From: an uncultured Alphaproteobacteria bacterium | GTDB lineage: Bacteria; Pseudomonadota; Alphaproteobacteria; RF32; CAG-239 | NCBI GenBank assembly: GCA_949297665.1 | Contig: CASFTO010000009.1 | Location: 1-37,233, forward strand | Direction of reading: 5' to 3' | Length of the DNA stretch: 37,233 bases | Shown here: positions 1,565 through 24,761 of the stretch, in pieces | Position numbering within the stretch: position 1 is the stretch's first letter | Layout of the letters: each line of letters begins with the position of its first letter | Position numbers and translations under genes: made by a program | The notes under the pieces: generated by a model | What the model saw: the letters and a program-made list of their open reading frames with translations, nothing else | The model's database searches: none | What the model was told of the DNA's origin: nothing

Positions 1565-2677
1565 ATGAAAAATACTATTTTAAAACAAATTAATGATATC
1601 GGAGCGAAAATCGGGTATCCTTTTTATTTCTACGCTGACGGTTCGTTTGGTAAATCTATTGTATCCGGTAAGATGAATGCTATTGTGGTTGTAAAAGGAA
1701 AATTTACTGCTTCTGGTCTTAAAAATGAATGTTTGGCTATTTGGGATGATGAAAATTTATCTTTAAGCGAAGCTATTATCTGTCTTAAAAAGAAAATGAA
1801 TTTTCCGATTTATATTTATTCTGATGGAATATGCGGGAAAACACCTCGCTTAGGTAGGTGTTCTTCTATTATGGTTGTTAAGAAGCCGTTTATTATTCGG
1901 AAAATGACGGAGAAGGCGTGTCAGTCGGTAAATCCTAAAATCGACCATATTATGCCAGAAGTTCATCGTGCAAAATGGGTTATGCCCGAGCCTGAAGAGA
2001 ATAAGCCGACTCCTATTCAATTGGCTCGTTTGGAAGTGGCGCGTCAAGCATTGCTAGAAGGTGTAGATTTAACCTATGAAGAAGAGGAAGCTCTTGTTTA
2101 TTTTGGAACAGATGAGGAAGTGAGAGCGTATTTTCCTTATTTGAAATGTAGCGAACTGTTGATTTGGAAAGGTAATCAAAAACTTTTAGAAGAATATATT
2201 GAGGATAATAGCTTTTGTTGTGAAGATGTTTTGGCTGAACGTTGTTCTGATGATGTTATTCTGAAATATTTTGATAATTGGTTGGTTGATGTCAAATTTA
2301 TGGAAAAATTGCTTGAATTAGGGAGATTTGAACTGATTGAGAAAATTCAAGAAGTTTCTTCTCTTAATCATCCTTCGGCTTTGGGGGAGATTGCTCGATA
2401 TGTGGAAGCTATTCTTAAAGCCGGATATCCGCAACTTTTGAAAATTCAAATTCAAAAGTATGACGATTGGCTCGATGATGATGTTGTATTGCTTGTGCAA
2501 TCCGGTAATTTGGAAATGATTAAGTATTATTTGGATTATCATCATCTTTGTTCTGCAGCACAGAAAGAGTTAGTGAAACTTGCTAATTCTCAGTTGATTG
2601 AGATGTACCAAGAACGATATGAGTTTGATGCTGATATTGCTGAAATGGCTAAATGGCGTGGATTACTCAGTGCTTAA
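1565..2677 (+). CDS. unknown protein with duplicated N-terminal module and helical C-terminal half
   Basis: A protein of about 370 residues that I do not recognise. The N-terminal part contains an internal duplication: residues 18-47 and 80-109 share the pattern (Y/F)P(F/I)Y(F/I)Y(A/S)DG..GK...G...(A/S)I(V/M)VVK..F, a short beta-rich unit. Residues about 150-370 are predicted from composition to be helical, with ankyrin- or LRV-like repeated helices rich in Leu, Asp and Glu. There is no signal peptide or membrane span, so it is probably cytoplasmic. The start is uncertain: GTG at 1562 is immediately followed by ATG at 1565, and no good ribosome site precedes either. It converges on ackA and shares a bidirectional terminator with it. 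Confidence 0.75.
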   Translation: MKNTILKQINDIGAKIGYPFYFYADGSFGKSIVSGKMNAIVVVKGKFTASGLKNECLAIWDDENLSLSEAIICLKKKMNFPIYIYSDGICGKTPRLGRCSSIMVVKKPFIIRKMTEKACQSVNPKIDHIMPEVHRAKWVMPEPEENKPTPIQLARLEVARQALLEGVDLTYEEEEALVYFGTDEEVRAYFPYLKCSELLIWKGNQKLLEEYIEDNSFCCEDVLAERCSDDVILKYFDNWLVDVKFMEKLLELGRFELIEKIQEVSSLNHPSALGEIARYVEAILKAGYPQLLKIQIQKYDDWLDDDVVLLVQSGNLEMIKYYLDYHHLCSAAQKELVKLANSQLIEMYQERYEFDADIAEMAKWRGLLSA

Positions 2678-2691
2678 TATGACAAGGCTAT

Positions 2692-2726
2692 AAAAAAGGC
2701 TTTCTTCTTATGAAGAGAGCCTTTTG
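2692..2726. terminator. bidirectional terminator between convergent genes
   Basis: An interrupted inverted repeat (AAAAGGCT ... AGCCTTTT, with an inner CTT/AAG stem) has A-runs on one side and T-runs on the other. It can serve both the plus-strand gene ending at 2677 and ackA ending at 2751. Confidence 0.7.
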
Positions 2727-2750
2727 GTTTGGGTATAGATAAAATTTTAT

Positions 2751-3935
2751 TTATGCATTAAATACAATTTGCATTGTATCTTTAGCAATCATGTACTCTT
2801 CATCGGTTGGGATAACGAATACGCGAACTTTTGAGTCTTTAGTGGAAATTTCTGTAATATCACCACGTTTGCTGTTAGCTTCTTCATCTAAAGTAATGCC
2901 TAAGTAAGCTAAACGTTCTACAACTAATTTTCTTACTAAAGAACCATTTTCACCAATACCAGCTGTGAATACGATAGCGTCAACACCGCCTAAAACTGCA
3001 ATGTATGCACCTATGAAACGGATGATGCTGTGAACGTATGTATTTAACGCATCTGTTGCGGCTTCTTCTACACCGTAAAGTGTTTCAATATCGCGGTTGT
3101 CGGAATATCCGCACAGACCATACATACCACTTTTCTTATTCAAAATTTCATTAACTTCATCTGGTGTTTTGTTTTGTGTTTTGCAGATGTATAATGGAAT
3201 ATATGGGTCAATATCACCGCAACGTGTTCCCATAACGAGACCGGCTAGTGGAGTGAAGCCCATTGATGTATCTTGACAAAGACCGTTGTCAACGGCAGAG
3301 ATAGATGCACCGTTTCCTAAATGGCAAGTGATGATTTTGCCTTTTTTGCCGATTAATTCAGCTGCTTTTTGAGAAACGTATGCGTGTGATGTACCATGGA
3401 AACCATAGCGGCGAATCTTGTATTTTGTATATTGTTCAATCGGAAGAGCATACAAGAATGCTTCTTTTGGCATGGTTTGGTGGAATGCAGTATCAAAAAC
3501 AACTGTTTGCGGAACATTTGGCAAAAGTTTTTTTACGGCTCTGATACCCAATACGTGAGCATGGTTGTGTAATGGAGCTAATTCGGATAATTCTTCAATT
3601 TGGTCAATTACAGTATCTGTTACCAAAACAGAGTTTTTGAAAATGTCGCCGCCTTGCACGATACGGTGTCCAACAGCGTCGATCTCGTCCATTGATTTCA
3701 ATGCGCCGTTTAGCAATTCTTTAGTTACTTCTGCAATGGCTTCGTTATGCGTTGGCAAAGCTACTTCTCTGGTTCTTTTTTCACCACCGGTGATTTTGAT
3801 TTCTACGAAAGAACCATGAATACCGATACGGTCTGCTTTTCCTTTAGCGATAACATCATATTTGTCGCCATCAACATTAAATAACTGGTATTTTAATGAA
3901 GATGAACCTGAGTTTAATACAAGAATCTTTTTCAT
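2751..3935 (-). CDS. ackA: acetate kinase
   Basis: Interconverts acetyl phosphate plus ADP and acetate plus ATP, the energy-yielding last step of the Pta-AckA route, in the cytoplasm. At 394 residues it has the family's usual length. The expected ASKHA-fold motifs are present: LVLNSGSSSLKYQ at the N-terminus, GHRIVQGG, VFDTAFHQ, RYGFHGTSH, HLGNGAS, GTRCGDIDP and TAGIGENG, plus the late PTDEEYMIA with its catalytic-region Glu. It lies 24 bases downstream of pta in the same orientation, so the two form an operon. Nothing is missing or unusual. Its presence supports fermentative acetate production or acetate scavenging. Confidence 0.98.
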   Translation of the reverse strand: MKKILVLNSGSSSLKYQLFNVDGDKYDVIAKGKADRIGIHGSFVEIKITGGEKRTREVALPTHNEAIAEVTKELLNGALKSMDEIDAVGHRIVQGGDIFKNSVLVTDTVIDQIEELSELAPLHNHAHVLGIRAVKKLLPNVPQTVVFDTAFHQTMPKEAFLYALPIEQYTKYKIRRYGFHGTSHAYVSQKAAELIGKKGKIITCHLGNGASISAVDNGLCQDTSMGFTPLAGLVMGTRCGDIDPYIPLYICKTQNKTPDEVNEILNKKSGMYGLCGYSDNRDIETLYGVEEAATDALNTYVHSIIRFIGAYIAVLGGVDAIVFTAGIGENGSLVRKLVVERLAYLGITLDEEANSKRGDITEISTKDSKVRVFVIPTDEEYMIAKDTMQIVFNA

Positions 3936-19520: not shown

Positions 19521-19555
19521 AAAAAAAGAACCTCTTTTTTGAGAGGTTCTTTAAT
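19521..19555 (-). terminator. terminator of the serS-side operon
   Basis: A perfect 11-bp stem AAAGAACCTCT (19525-19535) / AGAGGTTCTTT (19542-19552) with A- and T-runs lies 3 bases beyond the stop of the minus-strand gene at 19558. It could also act on plus-strand read-through. The 125 bases between this and the gyrB terminator show nothing recognisable. Confidence 0.82.
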
Positions 19556-19557
19556 TT

Positions 19558-19932
19558 TTAATACATTGAATATTTTATGGCGAAGTAAACCAGTATCCAG
19601 ACAATCATCATGCAGATAATTGCTAATATTTTACTTTTTTCATATTCTTTGTATGTGTTCCACATTCCTATTATGCATACAATACAATAGGTTATAGTGC
19701 CTAGAAATGCAGCGGTATAGAAACATAACCAAGTAAACGCTGCCGGATTCATACTTAATAATGATATGTTATTCCAAACAACTTGTAAAAATCTTGTTTC
19801 ATAACCAACGGATTGTTTTAAGAATATCATTAGCAGTCTTGTTACAAAACTTGATGCAATTAAGCCCAAAACAGAAAATTTCCAGAAAGCTACGGCCAAC
19901 GAGTATTGTCCGTAAACGAATTTTCCAAACAT
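19558..19932 (-). CDS. small polytopic membrane protein
   Basis: A 124-residue protein of unknown function with three hydrophobic spans, at about 15-37, 63-90 and 103-122. Loops are short, with a charged loop NTYKEYEKSK between spans two and three. A GGAG site lies 8 bases before the ATG. It is 66 bases downstream of the M49-like peptidase gene in the same orientation and is probably the last gene of that operon, because a terminator follows it at once. Confidence 0.75.
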   Translation of the reverse strand: MFGKFVYGQYSLAVAFWKFSVLGLIASSFVTRLLMIFLKQSVGYETRFLQVVWNNISLLSMNPAAFTWLCFYTAAFLGTITYCIVCIIGMWNTYKEYEKSKILAIICMMIVWILVYFAIKYSMY

Positions 19933-19998: not shown

Positions 19999-21717
19999 TT
20001 AGAAGAAGTTTACAATATTCTTGTATTTTTTCAAGCCTAGTTTTTTATGGGTATTGGCTATGTACTCATGCAAATCGTTCCATGTGGTGTTTTCTTCTAT
20101 ATATTGACGTGCTTTTTGGGGAGATTTGGATAATTGTATCTCAATCACTTGCGTTAGCAAATCATACATTGCAGGACTTATTTTTGCAAAATCAATATGG
20201 ATTAATTTGTTTTCGTCAAAACTAATGGCTTTGTGTTGTAATAGGGTGTTGAATTCTATTAAATCTACAATTTTGTAGGTTTCGGTTGGGAAAATCGGTT
20301 TTGCTCGTAGTAATAGGCGGAAAATCCATGTGGTATAAATTTCTTTTAATTCGTCTTCCGTGATGATGCCTTGTTTAACATATTCCGGCATAAATGATAT
20401 GGATACTGTATCCGCTTTGTTTTCTTCAATAATTGATTTGCAAATACCGGGAGCATTTTGATATTCGCTGCTCGGTCCTAACGAGTGTCCGTTTTCATGA
20501 CCGATTACGAACAGATGGTCTGCTTCTAAATTATAGTATTTGTGGAAATCTGGATGTAAAAATGCGTTGAGCATTTTTTGTGTTCTTTCCGGATCATGGC
20601 TTTGGCGTACTTGGCGATGGTATACATTTCGTCTGCCTCCACCGGTTTTGATGGATAATTTGTCGTTATTCGGGAGGTTTTGTGCTACGGTCATTCCGCC
20701 ACGACACTGGGCGTAATCTCCGGTTAAGCTCACTAAATCTACATCAACCATGGTTTGTTTAAGTTCTGTATTGGCGTTGACGGTTTGTGTATATTTATTG
20801 GCGTGAGGCATTAAACTGCTTAATTGCGGCATTGTGTTTTTAAATTTTAAAAGCAACTCTGTTCCTTTTTTGTTTACAATGCCGACTCGCGCACCAAGCA
20901 TATCCTTGGCGATTACTTCAATGTGTTTTTCCTTTATCAATTTGGCTAATTCGGGATTTTCTAATACGGTTGAGGTCATCTCATCATCGTAATTTTCTCG
21001 GCTTAACGTAAATTCAAGAGGGGTGTCTTGCATCATGGCCCAATGTTTATCTGCAAGCATATCCATGTCTTCATTGTTTTGTAATAAAGCCTGTGCTTGC
21101 CATGATAAATATTCTTTGAACAAGGTGTTGCTACAATAGTGCGCGGCAACTTCTAATTCATTGGCCATGGCTGAAAATTCTTCCTTAAAGTATTCGGTAT
21201 AATCAATCGCTTTTAATTCATCTTTTTCTCTTACGACCATGGTGCGAGCAGATAATATTTTTGCAACTTCTTTATCTTTTCCTGCTGCAAACATGTTCAA
21301 TAAAATTTGGTGAAATTCGCTGATACTTAAATCTTGCGGATAGAAGTTTTTGCCGGCAGGCGTGGTTAGGTTTTTGAAGATGCTTATCGGCTTTTCATCT
21401 ATACCGTTTAATCCGCTTACGCCGTTTAGTGAATTGAACATTTTTAATGATAATGCGGCTTGTTCATTGTGTGAGGCCGCTTGTTCAAGGGCTTTTTTTA
21501 ATGTTATGTTGAGCGGATTATCTTGTTGTAAACTAACATTGTTTAAAATTTTGGCGGCGGCGACTAAATGTTGTAAAGCCTTTTTATCTCCTTCTGTCAG
21601 TGCTTGGTATGCTTCTGATTTATCTGACAAGAGGATTATATCCGTCATTTCCTCTGTGGTCATCTTTTTGAGTTCTTCAATGCTGTAATTTAACTCATAG
21701 CCATTATATGTTGTCAT
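19999..21717 (-). CDS. M49-like (dipeptidyl-peptidase III type) zinc peptidase
   Basis: A 572-residue protein with no signal peptide, so probably cytoplasmic. Zinc ligands are predicted at H407 and H411, with catalytic E408, in VIGHENGHSLGP. The downstream glutamate ligand is in IIEENKADTVS (around E431-E432). The pairing of an HExxH-type site with an EE(N/C)(K/R)AD motif about 20 residues later is the signature of peptidase family M49 and its bacterial relatives. NLPNND with the following GGGRRNVYHRQ also recalls the substrate cleft strand of that family. The substrate is unknown. Its start overlaps the end of the preceding membrane-anchored gene by 14 bases, so the two are coupled. Confidence 0.78.
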   Translation of the reverse strand: MTTYNGYELNYSIEELKKMTTEEMTDIILLSDKSEAYQALTEGDKKALQHLVAAAKILNNVSLQQDNPLNITLKKALEQAASHNEQAALSLKMFNSLNGVSGLNGIDEKPISIFKNLTTPAGKNFYPQDLSISEFHQILLNMFAAGKDKEVAKILSARTMVVREKDELKAIDYTEYFKEEFSAMANELEVAAHYCSNTLFKEYLSWQAQALLQNNEDMDMLADKHWAMMQDTPLEFTLSRENYDDEMTSTVLENPELAKLIKEKHIEVIAKDMLGARVGIVNKKGTELLLKFKNTMPQLSSLMPHANKYTQTVNANTELKQTMVDVDLVSLTGDYAQCRGGMTVAQNLPNNDKLSIKTGGGRRNVYHRQVRQSHDPERTQKMLNAFLHPDFHKYYNLEADHLFVIGHENGHSLGPSSEYQNAPGICKSIIEENKADTVSISFMPEYVKQGIITEDELKEIYTTWIFRLLLRAKPIFPTETYKIVDLIEFNTLLQHKAISFDENKLIHIDFAKISPAMYDLLTQVIEIQLSKSPQKARQYIEENTTWNDLHEYIANTHKKLGLKKYKNIVNFF

Positions 21718-22789
21718 CTATGTTTATCTCCACTGTTTTGAATTTATAAAATTTCATTTTAGGGTTATTGTAATCGGGATTTAATCCCGCTTGTTGTTTT
21801 ATGTAACGATAAATGTTGCTTGCTGTTTGTTCTTTTGGGGATTGTTCTATTTCTTGCGGTAATAAAATATGCTCTCTTTGCTCAAAACGAAACATTAATC
21901 CATCATCTTGGGTGAGTGGTGTGTGAATTGGAATTTCTTGAAGAGATGTAAGTAAGGATAATTTTTGTATTTTTTCATGGGATGAGAATTTTTGTATGGA
22001 ATCTGTGATGTTTTGGGTTAATGAACGGTCGTTATTCAATTTACATATTTTTTTTTCTTGTGATGATAGGCATATTGAGGCGTTCTGTAATAAAATGTAT
22101 TGCGATGAAATAGGGTAGCTTATGGTTGAATATGGTTTTGACGGAATAACGCTTAAAATGATGTCTTTATGGTCTTTTATCAGTCGGTTTAAATTTTCTT
22201 TTTCTTGTTCTTGAGTGGTTGTGGTGATGGGGGGAAGTGGGACATATGTATCAAGAAAATTTTGGAGTTCTTGGTTTTGAAATGTGTTGGATGATGTGGT
22301 ATAATTTATTGTTTTGGGGGAATAATTTTTTGATTGAGTCAGCTCTAATATTTTATCTTCATCAGATGAAACGATAATTTGAGTGGAGTGATTATTGGAT
22401 TTTATTTCAGGGGCAAATATTTGGGCTAATTTTAACAATAGCGCTGATTCATTTATTTCTGGTGTGAATTTAATCTCTGTGGCTTGTGGGGGAATGTAGG
22501 AAAATGCATGCGCTATTGTGCTTAAGTTTTCTCGATTAAGATGTTGTGGAATGAGTATGAACAGTTCTGTTTTTGATGGGGTGGATAAGATTGTTATTGG
22601 TTCTGTTTGTGTGTACCACTGTGGTGTTGAGGTTTGGGCTCTATATTCTAACAGACGGCTCTTTGTTTGATTTAAATCAGTTGAAAAGCAAATGAAATTA
22701 AGGCATATTACAAAAATGATGCTTATGATTAAAAGGCTACGCTTTATTTTTTTTTGTCGTTCTTTCTTTTTATCTACATATAATAACAT
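21704..22789 (-). CDS. membrane-anchored protein with AMMECR1-like C-terminal domain
   Basis: A 361-residue protein with a basic N-terminus (KKKERQKKIKR) and one signal-anchor span at about 18-36, placing the rest outside the cytoplasmic membrane. The Ser/Thr/Gln-rich middle (about 40-270) is unrecognised. Residues about 276-350 resemble the AMMECR1 fold: IPIHTPL, then GLMFRFEQREHILLPQEI, then IYRYIKQQAGL and KMKFYKFKTVEI. This matches the order of that family's HGLxxxxGxRxGxLLPQ, CxKAGL and VYxFxT elements, though the usual Gly-rich turns have diverged. No good ribosome site is seen. It starts 18 bases after the HD gene stop and is probably read through coupling. Confidence 0.6.
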   Translation of the reverse strand: MLLYVDKKKERQKKIKRSLLIISIIFVICLNFICFSTDLNQTKSRLLEYRAQTSTPQWYTQTEPITILSTPSKTELFILIPQHLNRENLSTIAHAFSYIPPQATEIKFTPEINESALLLKLAQIFAPEIKSNNHSTQIIVSSDEDKILELTQSKNYSPKTINYTTSSNTFQNQELQNFLDTYVPLPPITTTTQEQEKENLNRLIKDHKDIILSVIPSKPYSTISYPISSQYILLQNASICLSSQEKKICKLNNDRSLTQNITDSIQKFSSHEKIQKLSLLTSLQEIPIHTPLTQDDGLMFRFEQREHILLPQEIEQSPKEQTASNIYRYIKQQAGLNPDYNNPKMKFYKFKTVEINIDDNI

Positions 22790-22807: not shown

Positions 22808-23437
22808 TCATTCTTGGGGGGATAGGGCGCATCTTTTCATATTTTCTTTTGATAGTGTAATAATGGCGTTTTCCAAATCTCTAAGAATGGGTTCATCCAA
22901 TTCTTTAATCAGAGGTTTCTTTTTTAGAGCCATTTTATAATATTCTCCGCCATTTTCGCATAAGCCCCAATAGCGCACATCTCCGTCTTTATATTGGTTG
23001 GCTTGTAAATTTGCTTCTAATTTATCTAGGACTGAAACAATCTTTGCTTCGCGGGTTTCTTTTTCTTCGTATTCTTGGTATAAGTTATATATTTTTTTAT
23101 TTAGCGGTGCAGGTAACAAATTTTTTAGTTCTTGAATTGCTTGGGCTTCCTTATATTTCTTTTCCTCTTTTATGGACGGGTTGGCTATTTGATTTGCTGC
23201 CGTATAATCTCCGACCTTTCCTTCGGCTATGTCGTGTACTAAAGCCATTTCCAACATCTTAGTATAATCTATGTCGCTCTTAAGGTAGGGGGCGACTAAC
23301 ATTACCAAAAAGGAGAGCTTGAAAATATGCATCGCATCATTTTCCGGTGAGCCTTCATATAAAAGCAAATCTCTTTTGACGACACACACTTCTTCTAATG
23401 CACGCATAAAATTGATGATTTTATCAATCCTTTTCAT
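22808..23437 (-). CDS. HD-domain phosphohydrolase, 5'-deoxynucleotidase YfbR-like
   Basis: A 209-residue metal-dependent phosphohydrolase. HD-domain ligands are visible as H37 (NDAMHIFKLSF), H68-D69 (ALVHDIAEG) and D138 (SVLDKLEA), the spacing of the YfbR / HDDC2 group, which dephosphorylates deoxynucleoside 5'-monophosphates. The open frame runs 18 codons further upstream into the end of serS, but the ATG at 23437 has an AGGAG site 4 bases before it and matches the family N-terminus. It begins 22 bases after serS, so they are co-transcribed. The specific substrate is inferred from family resemblance. Confidence 0.85.
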   Translation of the reverse strand: MKRIDKIINFMRALEEVCVVKRDLLLYEGSPENDAMHIFKLSFLVMLVAPYLKSDIDYTKMLEMALVHDIAEGKVGDYTAANQIANPSIKEEKKYKEAQAIQELKNLLPAPLNKKIYNLYQEYEEKETREAKIVSVLDKLEANLQANQYKDGDVRYWGLCENGGEYYKMALKKKPLIKELDEPILRDLENAIITLSKENMKRCALSPQE

Positions 23438-23459: not shown

Positions 23460-24761
23460 TTATGCTTCTTTGGTTTTGGCGTTTTTACCAATAAATTTCT
23501 TACCGTTCATATATGGTTGCAATTTGGTTGGTATACGGACGGTATAGTCGACTTGTTGGTGGTTTTCGATAAATGGTACTAAGATACGCGGTGTCGCAAT
23601 GCCCGTATTGTTTAATGTATGGACGAATTTAACTTTGCCGTCCTTGTTATCTCTGTATCTTAGATTGGTACGACGTGCCTGCCATTCGGTAATGTTTGAA
23701 CAAGAGTGTGTTTCTCTATAACAATTTTGTGATGGCGTCCAGGCTTCCAAGTCATATTGCCGATATTTCGGGGCTCCCATATCTCCTGTACAAATTTCAA
23801 GTACTTGATAAGGTAATTCCAAATCTTGCAATACTTCTTCTGAAATTGCCAACAATGTCTTGTGCCATTTTTCACTTTCTGCAATATCATTTTTGCAGAT
23901 TACAAATTGCTCGGTTTTTAAAAATTGATGAACGCGAACTAAACCTCTTGTGTCTTTTCCGGCTGCTCCGGCTTCGCGACGGAAACAAGGTGAAAAACCG
24001 GCATATAATACGGGAAGGTCATTTTCAGACAATATTTCATCGGCTCTTAAGGAGTTTAAAACTAACTCGGCTGTTCCTGATAAATATAAATCATCTGCCG
24101 GCATGTAATAAACTTCGTCTTGTGAGAATGGCAGGTAGCCCATACCATATAAAGGTTTTTGTTTGGATAAGGATGGTACGGTTATTGTGGTGAATCCATG
24201 TTCTGTCAATTTATCCAATACCATCATGTGCATTGCTAATTCTAAGCGTGATAATTCATTTTTGATTGCATAAGTTCTGGCGCCAGAAACTTTGGTTATG
24301 CGCTCTAATTCCGACCAATCATTTAATTCCATTAGTTCAACATGGTCTTTGGGGGTAAAATCAAATTTTGTTGGCTCACCGATGCGTCTGATTACAACGT
24401 TGCCGCTTTCATCCGGCCCTACCGGGGATTCGGGACACGGCAGGTTGGGCATTCGCCACATAATGTTATCATACTTTTTTTGTTCTTCTGCTAACAACTC
24501 TTGTTCTTTTTTCAACTCTTCTCCGATTTCTTTGCTTTTAGCAATAATTGCAGGGCGGTTCTCGTTGGATGCGGATTTTATTGAGTTGCTTAGCTTATTT
24601 TTCTCTTCTGCCAAGGTTTGGGTTGATGTCTTTAGTTTGTTAACATCTCTGTGTAAGGCGATTAAGCCGTCTATGTCTATTTGTTCTTTTGTGTAGCCTT
24701 TTTTGGCTAGGCCTTCTTTTACCGTTTCCAGATTTTCTATGATAAATTTTATATCCAACAT
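23460..24761 (-). CDS. serS: serine--tRNA ligase
   Basis: Charges tRNA-Ser with serine. It has 433 residues. Residues about 1-110 are the long antiparallel coiled-coil tRNA-binding arm (LKTSTQTLAEEKNKLSNSIK ...). The class II catalytic core follows with motif 2 in FSPCFRREAGAAGKDTRGLVRVHQF, the serine-pocket segment around EICTGDMGAPKYRQYDLEAW, SCSNITEWQARR, and motif 3 in NTGIATPRILVPFIENHQ. The ribosome site is AAGGA. It is the first gene of a minus-strand operon that continues into an HD phosphohydrolase and envelope genes. Confidence 0.97.
   Translation of the reverse strand: MLDIKFIIENLETVKEGLAKKGYTKEQIDIDGLIALHRDVNKLKTSTQTLAEEKNKLSNSIKSASNENRPAIIAKSKEIGEELKKEQELLAEEQKKYDNIMWRMPNLPCPESPVGPDESGNVVIRRIGEPTKFDFTPKDHVELMELNDWSELERITKVSGARTYAIKNELSRLELAMHMMVLDKLTEHGFTTITVPSLSKQKPLYGMGYLPFSQDEVYYMPADDLYLSGTAELVLNSLRADEILSENDLPVLYAGFSPCFRREAGAAGKDTRGLVRVHQFLKTEQFVICKNDIAESEKWHKTLLAISEEVLQDLELPYQVLEICTGDMGAPKYRQYDLEAWTPSQNCYRETHSCSNITEWQARRTNLRYRDNKDGKVKFVHTLNNTGIATPRILVPFIENHQQVDYTVRIPTKLQPYMNGKKFIGKNAKTKEA

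Follow-up and report, generated by a model that had tools for sequence, protein, structure and literature searches.

An apparently decayed, membrane-anchored MEMO-AMMECR1 protein encoded together with an M49-like peptidase in uncultured Alphaproteobacteria

Introduction

Conservation of MEMO and of AMMECR1 extends from bacteria to humans; what they primarily do in biochemical terms is still open, as PMC11081632 states for MEMO1. One stretch of DNA from an uncultured alphaproteobacterium (37,233 nucleotides, contig CASFTO010000009.1 of assembly GCA_949297665.1; hereafter “the window”) raises the question of what an AMMECR1-like domain does when it is carried behind a membrane span by a gene that runs into the gene for a zinc peptidase. 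This gene, here called AMM, is real and the earlier observation is confirmed; comparison with its relatives suggests that the product is the worn-down descendant of a membrane-anchored MEMO-AMMECR1 fusion. A natural series from intact to stripped proteins, tied to one peptidase, separates the role of catalytic residues from that of a scaffold, and the AMM family names a testable peptidase partner.

Results and Discussion

The AMM locus

Seryl-tRNA synthetase, HD phosphohydrolase, AMM, M49-like peptidase and a small membrane protein (SMP) follow one another in the window with gaps of 22, 18, −14 and 66 bases (Table 1); the 14-base overlap of AMM and peptidase, claimed in the sequence-only reading, could be read directly from the sequence. 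The host genome measures 1.9 Mb in 109 contigs. Near relatives with named records are uncultured Alphaproteobacteria, which we take from the record names to be gut bacteria.

Table 1. Features of the AMM locus, in positions of the window.
Feature	Position	Strand	Size or basis
AMM gene (apparently decayed membrane-anchored MEMO-AMMECR1 protein)	21704..22789	-	361 aa, ATG start
AMM predicted cytosolic tail, residues 1-17 (MLLYVDKKKERQKKIKR)	22739..22789	-	pairwise identity 0.77, 16 congeners
AMM membrane span, about residues 18-37	22679..22738	-	hydropathy, AlphaFold helix
AMM Asn31 codon, within membrane helix	22697..22699	-	N in 131/131 readable rows
AMM residues 38-190, presumed MEMO remnant without metal ligands	22220..22678	-	position; profile links via sister genera; weak direct match
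AMM residues 199-361, AMMECR1 fold without RGC cysteine motif	21707..22195	-	profiles and structure matches
AMM Cys240 codon, invariant Cys pair	22070..22072	-	16/16 congeners
AMM Cys249 codon, invariant Cys pair	22043..22045	-	16/16 congeners
GGAG in Val353-Glu354 codons, placed like peptidase ribosome-binding site	21728..21731	-	sequence reading
AMM stop/peptidase start overlap	21704..21717	-	14 bases
M49 (DPP III-like) zinc peptidase without signal sequence	19999..21717	-	572 aa; phmmer to 6eom
HENGH zinc motif of peptidase (position 407)	20485..20499	-	
EENKAD motif of peptidase (position 431)	20410..20427	-	
SMP, three hydrophobic regions	19558..19932	-	124 aa
Terminator-like hairpin with T run, downstream of SMP	19522..19552	-	sequence reading
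HD-domain phosphohydrolase (YfbR-like)	22808..23437	-	18 bases upstream of AMM
Seryl-tRNA synthetase, housekeeping neighbour	23460..24761	-	

An AMMECR1 domain behind a presumed MEMO remnant

Profile matches to the C-terminal part of AMM stay under the cut-offs: Pfam AMMECR1 (PF01871) covers residues 276-353 with E 0.00069 and 19.6 bits (curated cut-off 25), NCBIfam AmmeMemoSam_A covers residues 277-353 with E 9.8e-05 and 21.8 bits (cut-off 99), and a PF01871 search of the window's own genome returned no match. The AlphaFold2 model of AMM, calculated with 85 aligned relatives, has a mean pLDDT of 88; the AMMECR1 structure 1vaj fits its residues 199-361 (Z 12.2, 157 residues, rmsd 3.4), Foldseek with the model found three AMMECR1 entries at E 4e-7 to 1.8e-6, and a profile of the congeners matches the AMMECR1 part of intact relatives at E 6.3e-17. 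The structure matches bear out the claim of a diverged AMMECR1-like C-terminal domain, and another fold for this region is rejected, as the structure search put it in AMMECR1. The extent first proposed, residues 276-361, was right as to identity but not as to limits: the fold starts near residue 199 and is about twice as long, so that some 80 of the 230 residues described as unrecognised belong to AMMECR1. The RGC cysteine motif is absent from window AMM, where its alignment column holds a gap.

The composition reported for the middle of the protein stood, with 30.9% Ser, Thr and Gln in residues 40-275 vs 8.6-16.8% in three neighbouring proteins. The description as unrecognised did not, nor is a new domain in residues 40-275 supported: residues 199-275 are AMMECR1, and residues 38-190 lie in the place of MEMO. 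The MEMO profile PF01875 found no match in AMM or in the window's own genome. In sister genera the protein measures about 520 aa: a similar membrane span leads into a full MEMO and a full AMMECR1 domain, each of which clears its curated NCBIfam cut-off by a wide margin in L045 and L038. In-between sizes occur in other genera (377-396 aa, 408-432 aa, and 501 aa where MEMO is weaker). For the decayed genera g2, g5 and g13, the segment that separates the span from AMMECR1 gives E 5e-12 against intact MEMO. Matches of the same region from the window genus are weak: against the decayed genera plus g16 it reaches E 0.013 and a score of 20.2, with 13.0 as the best of 40 column shuffles, and against intact MEMO E 0.014 and 22.5, with 18.3 as the best of 40. 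VIA-align rows for residues 54-166 are generic alpha/beta dehydrogenases at Z below 6, with no MEMO entry listed. It is position and the in-between forms, rather than proof by direct comparison, that make it likely that residues 38-190 derive from MEMO.

Repeated loss of catalytic residues

A profile built from eight close relatives was searched against 153 genomes of the order and matched AMM in 128. For residue counts, 140 of the 143 genomes with the peptidase were mapped (G076, G093 and G152 left out) and an upstream frame was present in 136, giving an AMM alignment of 132 rows after G009, G124, G144 and G148 were dropped; for the cysteine and tail counts only, G009 was put back and the G144 stub added. 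The metal ligands of MEMO1 are H49, H81 and C244 according to PMC11081632; intact relatives of AMM keep these ligands, as in human MEMO1 and the LigB-type extradiol dioxygenases, and window AMM has lost them, its row showing Q, N and a gap in the three columns. All five ligand and motif columns are lost in this row, whereas the three MEMO ligands and the RGC cysteine of AMMECR1 are all kept in 63/132 rows. On the peptidase tree, which comes from a quick search and has 33 open forks among 132 inner branches, we count no fewer than 6 losses of the metal triad and no fewer than 9 of the RGC cysteine, considering losses only and assuming regain to be absent. One triad-loss row, G066, is truncated at the end of its contig, but with G073 and G074 in the same clade the number of events is unaffected. 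Triad and RGC cysteine are both missing throughout the clade formed by g1 (the window genus), g2, g5, g13 and g16.

Genus g16 has lost the AMMECR1 domain itself: seven genomes encode stubs of 159-184 aa, made up of tail, membrane span and one small alpha/beta domain, which mostly keep the overlap with the peptidase gene. The AlphaFold model of one stub has a pLDDT of 82.7, and a fold search with it returned nothing below E 0.001. Two further genomes of g16 depart from this arrangement. In G144 a single open frame (L180, 1095-3335(+)) encodes the stub joined to the peptidase, 746 aa in all; either the fusion is natural or it stems from an indel or a fault of the assembly. G148 has no AMM gene ahead of its peptidase; here AMM has seemingly been lost and the peptidase stays.

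The M49-like peptidase and other neighbours

The window peptidase matches 6eom, the DPP III of Caldithrix abyssi, in phmmer at E 1.6e-26 and 5zum at E 2.3e-6; the Pfam M49 profile gave no row for it at E 5 or better. Its zinc motifs are kept (HENGH at 407, EENKAD at 431). The second M49 zinc motif has the general form EExxA(D/E), and E431, E432, K434 and A435 are invariant in 13 rows. Sequence comparison thus places the protein with the M49/DPP III enzymes of HEXXH type. Caldithrix abyssi DPP III (6EOM; PMC5805324) shares with it the pentapeptide zinc motif and a length of about 550 aa, differing in having HEISH for HENGH; the window peptidase is in addition paired with AMM.

All 128 AMM-matching genomes have the peptidase directly downstream of AMM on the same strand, with the match starting −13 to +20 bases from the end of AMM, and this neighbourhood analysis upholds the conserved linkage with an M49-like zinc peptidase that the sequence-only reading had proposed. 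The peptidase occurs without an AMM profile match in 15 genomes, where we found an AMM frame missed by the profile (2), a stub (7), a fusion (1), no AMM (1), a contig edge or no frame (3), or, in G152 of another family, no AMM gene (1). In the class sample it is present in 6/289 genomes, 4 of them from the window's family.

SMP lies downstream of the peptidase in 37/40 loci with enough sequence; among the three remaining loci, L053 has an SMP that overlaps the end of the peptidase gene. SMP has a conserved start with an FWK motif, and the window SMP has no Pfam or NCBIfam match below E 0.05. Directly upstream of AMM, an HD phosphohydrolase is found in 12/37 loci and a HAD phosphatase in at least 12/37. 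From the same-operon system suggested earlier we therefore retain the small membrane protein; the HD phosphohydrolase is probably not part of the module.

Many relatives (L038, L045, L056 and others) have a gene for L-serine ammonia-lyase between peptidase and SMP, the assignment having been tested in L045; a radical SAM enzyme, considered for this 460-aa gene, was rejected. A frame of ammonia-lyase length occupies the same place in L043 and L048, two loci with a decayed AMM.

What selection has kept

Comparing the window with L001 gave an omega of 0.22 for AMM and of 0.04 for the peptidase; the corresponding values in five further pairs of the window genus were 0.10-0.17 and 0.03-0.04, some of the dS values behind these estimates being saturated. 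A pseudogene was considered for AMM and rejected, as an omega well under 1 indicates purifying selection. For tail plus span, omega is 0.06. Among the 16 congeners the tail (residues 1-17) has a mean pairwise identity of 0.77 vs 0.32-0.51 elsewhere in AMM and 0.37 after the span. In g1, g2 and g16 conservation is higher in the tail than in the domain, and in the mostly intact genera g6, g8, g12, g14 and g15 it is higher in the domain; the shift towards the tail is absent in g13 (all decayed) and in g3 and g7 (partly decayed).

Within the membrane helix, Asn31 is N in all 131 readable rows (G066, with its cut sequence, is the missing one), including members without AMMECR1. As 115/132 rows have no other Asn in the 16 columns ahead of it, this conservation is hardly an artefact of alignment sliding. 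Glu354, in 131/132 rows, is the sole other residue kept as widely; its codon lies within a GGAG string ten bases ahead of the peptidase start, and it may be held by the peptidase's ribosome-binding site. From what is generally known of membrane helices, an Asn that is buried in one and has outlasted nearly everything else in the protein suggests that this helix packs against a partner.

The repeated loss of catalytic residues, with the membrane segment kept, suggests a tether or adaptor instead of an enzyme, and the proposal we tentatively prefer is that AMM now serves as a non-catalytic membrane tether or adaptor for the peptidase and a membrane partner. The ancestor would have been a membrane-anchored MEMO-AMMECR1 fusion enzyme with both domains in the periplasm. 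In the window genus, as in others that lost them independently, neither the metal site nor the cysteine motif of AMMECR1 is left. Selection still acts on the short, predicted cytosolic tail, the Asn-bearing helix and a folded outer domain, which in the window genus has an invariant Cys pair. The helix may pack through Asn31 against a membrane partner, with SMP as the best candidate, or against AMM itself; the tail may hold or regulate the co-translated cytosolic M49 dipeptidyl peptidase (a predicted activity), and the outer domain could act as sensor or spacer. Homology, gene order, residue losses, selection and the conservation of Asn31 come from computation; that AMM binds SMP or the peptidase, and that it regulates, is a guess. 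Possible, though we hold it doubtful, is a more far-reaching picture of a two-sided membrane module shared by the whole family, in which a cytosolic M49 peptidase captured a MEMO-AMMECR1 enzyme that was several times made into an Asn-defined pseudoenzyme adaptor, down to a stub of 160-180 residues, and in which signals or peptides from outside reach the peptidase via helix and SMP.

The outer domain may instead still be an enzyme in its own right, or bind a ligand such as a peptide or small molecule, at a site that has been remodelled; the peptidase would then simply be expressed alongside it to make use of peptides. The domain is itself under purifying selection (omega 0.20-0.32 across AMM regions, window vs L001), the C-terminal half of AMMECR1 is its better conserved part (identity 0.51), and the ammonia-lyase adjoining the peptidase in many relatives offers a context of amino-acid catabolism; we nevertheless consider such a role unlikely, given the loss of every ligand and motif column in the window row, the persistence of the gene in g16 without AMMECR1 and the faster evolution of the domain compared with the tail.

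Topology and cysteines

AMM has exactly one hydrophobic span (residues 14-40, hydropathy 2.64), and the AlphaFold helix across the anchor covers residues 7-40. The bias of K/R residues places the N-terminus inside in 99/132 rows, with KKKERQKKIKR ahead of the span in window AMM. C240 and C249 are invariant in 16/16 proteins of g1 and an unrelated Cys pair in 8/8 of g16, and two unrelated invariant pairs fit an oxidising compartment. DsbA-like proteins are present in the window genome (motifs CGYC, CGHC and CSHC), but DsbB and VKOR gave no match there, so disulfide formation is unsure. We infer from these features a topology with the N-terminus in and the domains outside, and a disulfide.

In the reverse arrangement, with the C-terminal domain cytosolic and in direct complex with the peptidase, the peptidase would sit where its start suggests: hydrophobicity exceeds the export threshold in only 2/128 proteins (median hydropathy maximum 0.19), and these exceptions we read as the fusion (G144) and a too-early start (G141). 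The single polypeptide of G144, if real, would leave peptidase and outer domain on one side of the membrane, and the charge bias is equal in 20/132 rows and reversed in 13/132. Against this stand the basic stretch before the span, the N-inside majority, the Cys pairs of g1 and g16 and the signal-peptide-like starts of exported fusions in other classes, and we regard a cytosolic C-terminal domain as decidedly improbable. Still harder to credit is a plain relic, a frame kept only for translational coupling to the peptidase through the overlap and with a dispensable product, since the unbroken adjacency, the extreme shrinkage in g16, the apparent loss in G148 and the GGAG string inside the AMM frame would suit it, but the omega values, above all that of tail plus span, and the invariance of Asn31 do not.

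With the outer domain placed outside, as under the tether proposal, the extracytoplasmic AMMECR1 of the sequence-only reading is favoured by the signal-anchor span and the N-inside bias, and loses its uniqueness to exported fusions in other classes. As the peptidase is without an export signal, the module would span the membrane instead of being confined to the envelope.

Comparison with known systems

AMMECR1 was found in 47/289 genomes of the class and 103/398 of the phylum. For fusions we read 24 MEMO-fused frames from the 39 best-scoring loci, which is not a random draw; a signal-like hydrophobic start is present in 10 of these 24 MEMO-AMMECR1 fusions and in 0/7 from the class sample. Exported MEMO-AMMECR1 thus occurs outside the window's order, with other partners, and outside placement alone is not new; what is unusual in the AMM family is the M49 coupling with recurrent decay.

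Among the papers it covered, a literature search found none joining AMMECR1 with dipeptidyl peptidase III and no description of an AMM-peptidase module; PMC11081632, PMC6393860, PMC7159879 and PMC5805324 were among those consulted. Burroughs et al. 2019 (dioxygenase superfamily) is cited for “Memo-Ammecr1 systems” in PMC7159879.

The AmmeMemoRadiSam system (TIGR04335 for A, TIGR04336 for B, TIGR04337 for the radical SAM protein) resembles the ancestral AMM in its fused A and B domains. AMM differs in its membrane anchor, its M49 partner and the absence of a linked radical SAM gene from what we saw, and window AMM also in the loss of motif residues and in failing the cut-offs. TIGR04337 had no match in the window genome (G000) and exceeded its cut-off in 8/127 genomes of the order, all of genus g13. 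These genomes (L058-L061 and four more) have AmmeMemoRadiSam-type radical SAM genes alongside a decayed MEMO-AMMECR1 protein; in one of the genus, G103, the radical SAM gene is on another contig.

Soluble MEMO-AMMECR1 fusions in other Alphaproteobacteria (L063, L064, L069, L071) have the domain order of the AMM family. Unlike AMM, they are without a membrane span (7/7 read, one of them cut off) and adjoin a radical SAM gene, with TIGR04337 over the cut-off in the two tested.

Exported fusions in other proteobacterial classes (L195, L196, L199, L204, L210) carry a signal-like hydrophobic N-terminus before MEMO, that of L195 lying just under the threshold (1.59). In contrast to the AMM family, no M49 peptidase occurs in the flanks read, and four of the fusions are followed by a gene for a membrane protein. 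This gene is overlapped by 4 bases in L195 (fusion at 2043-3347), L196 (2052-3353), L199 (155-1444) and L210 (33-1331), and Gate (nucleoside recognition, PF07670) domains were found in the two membrane proteins tested.
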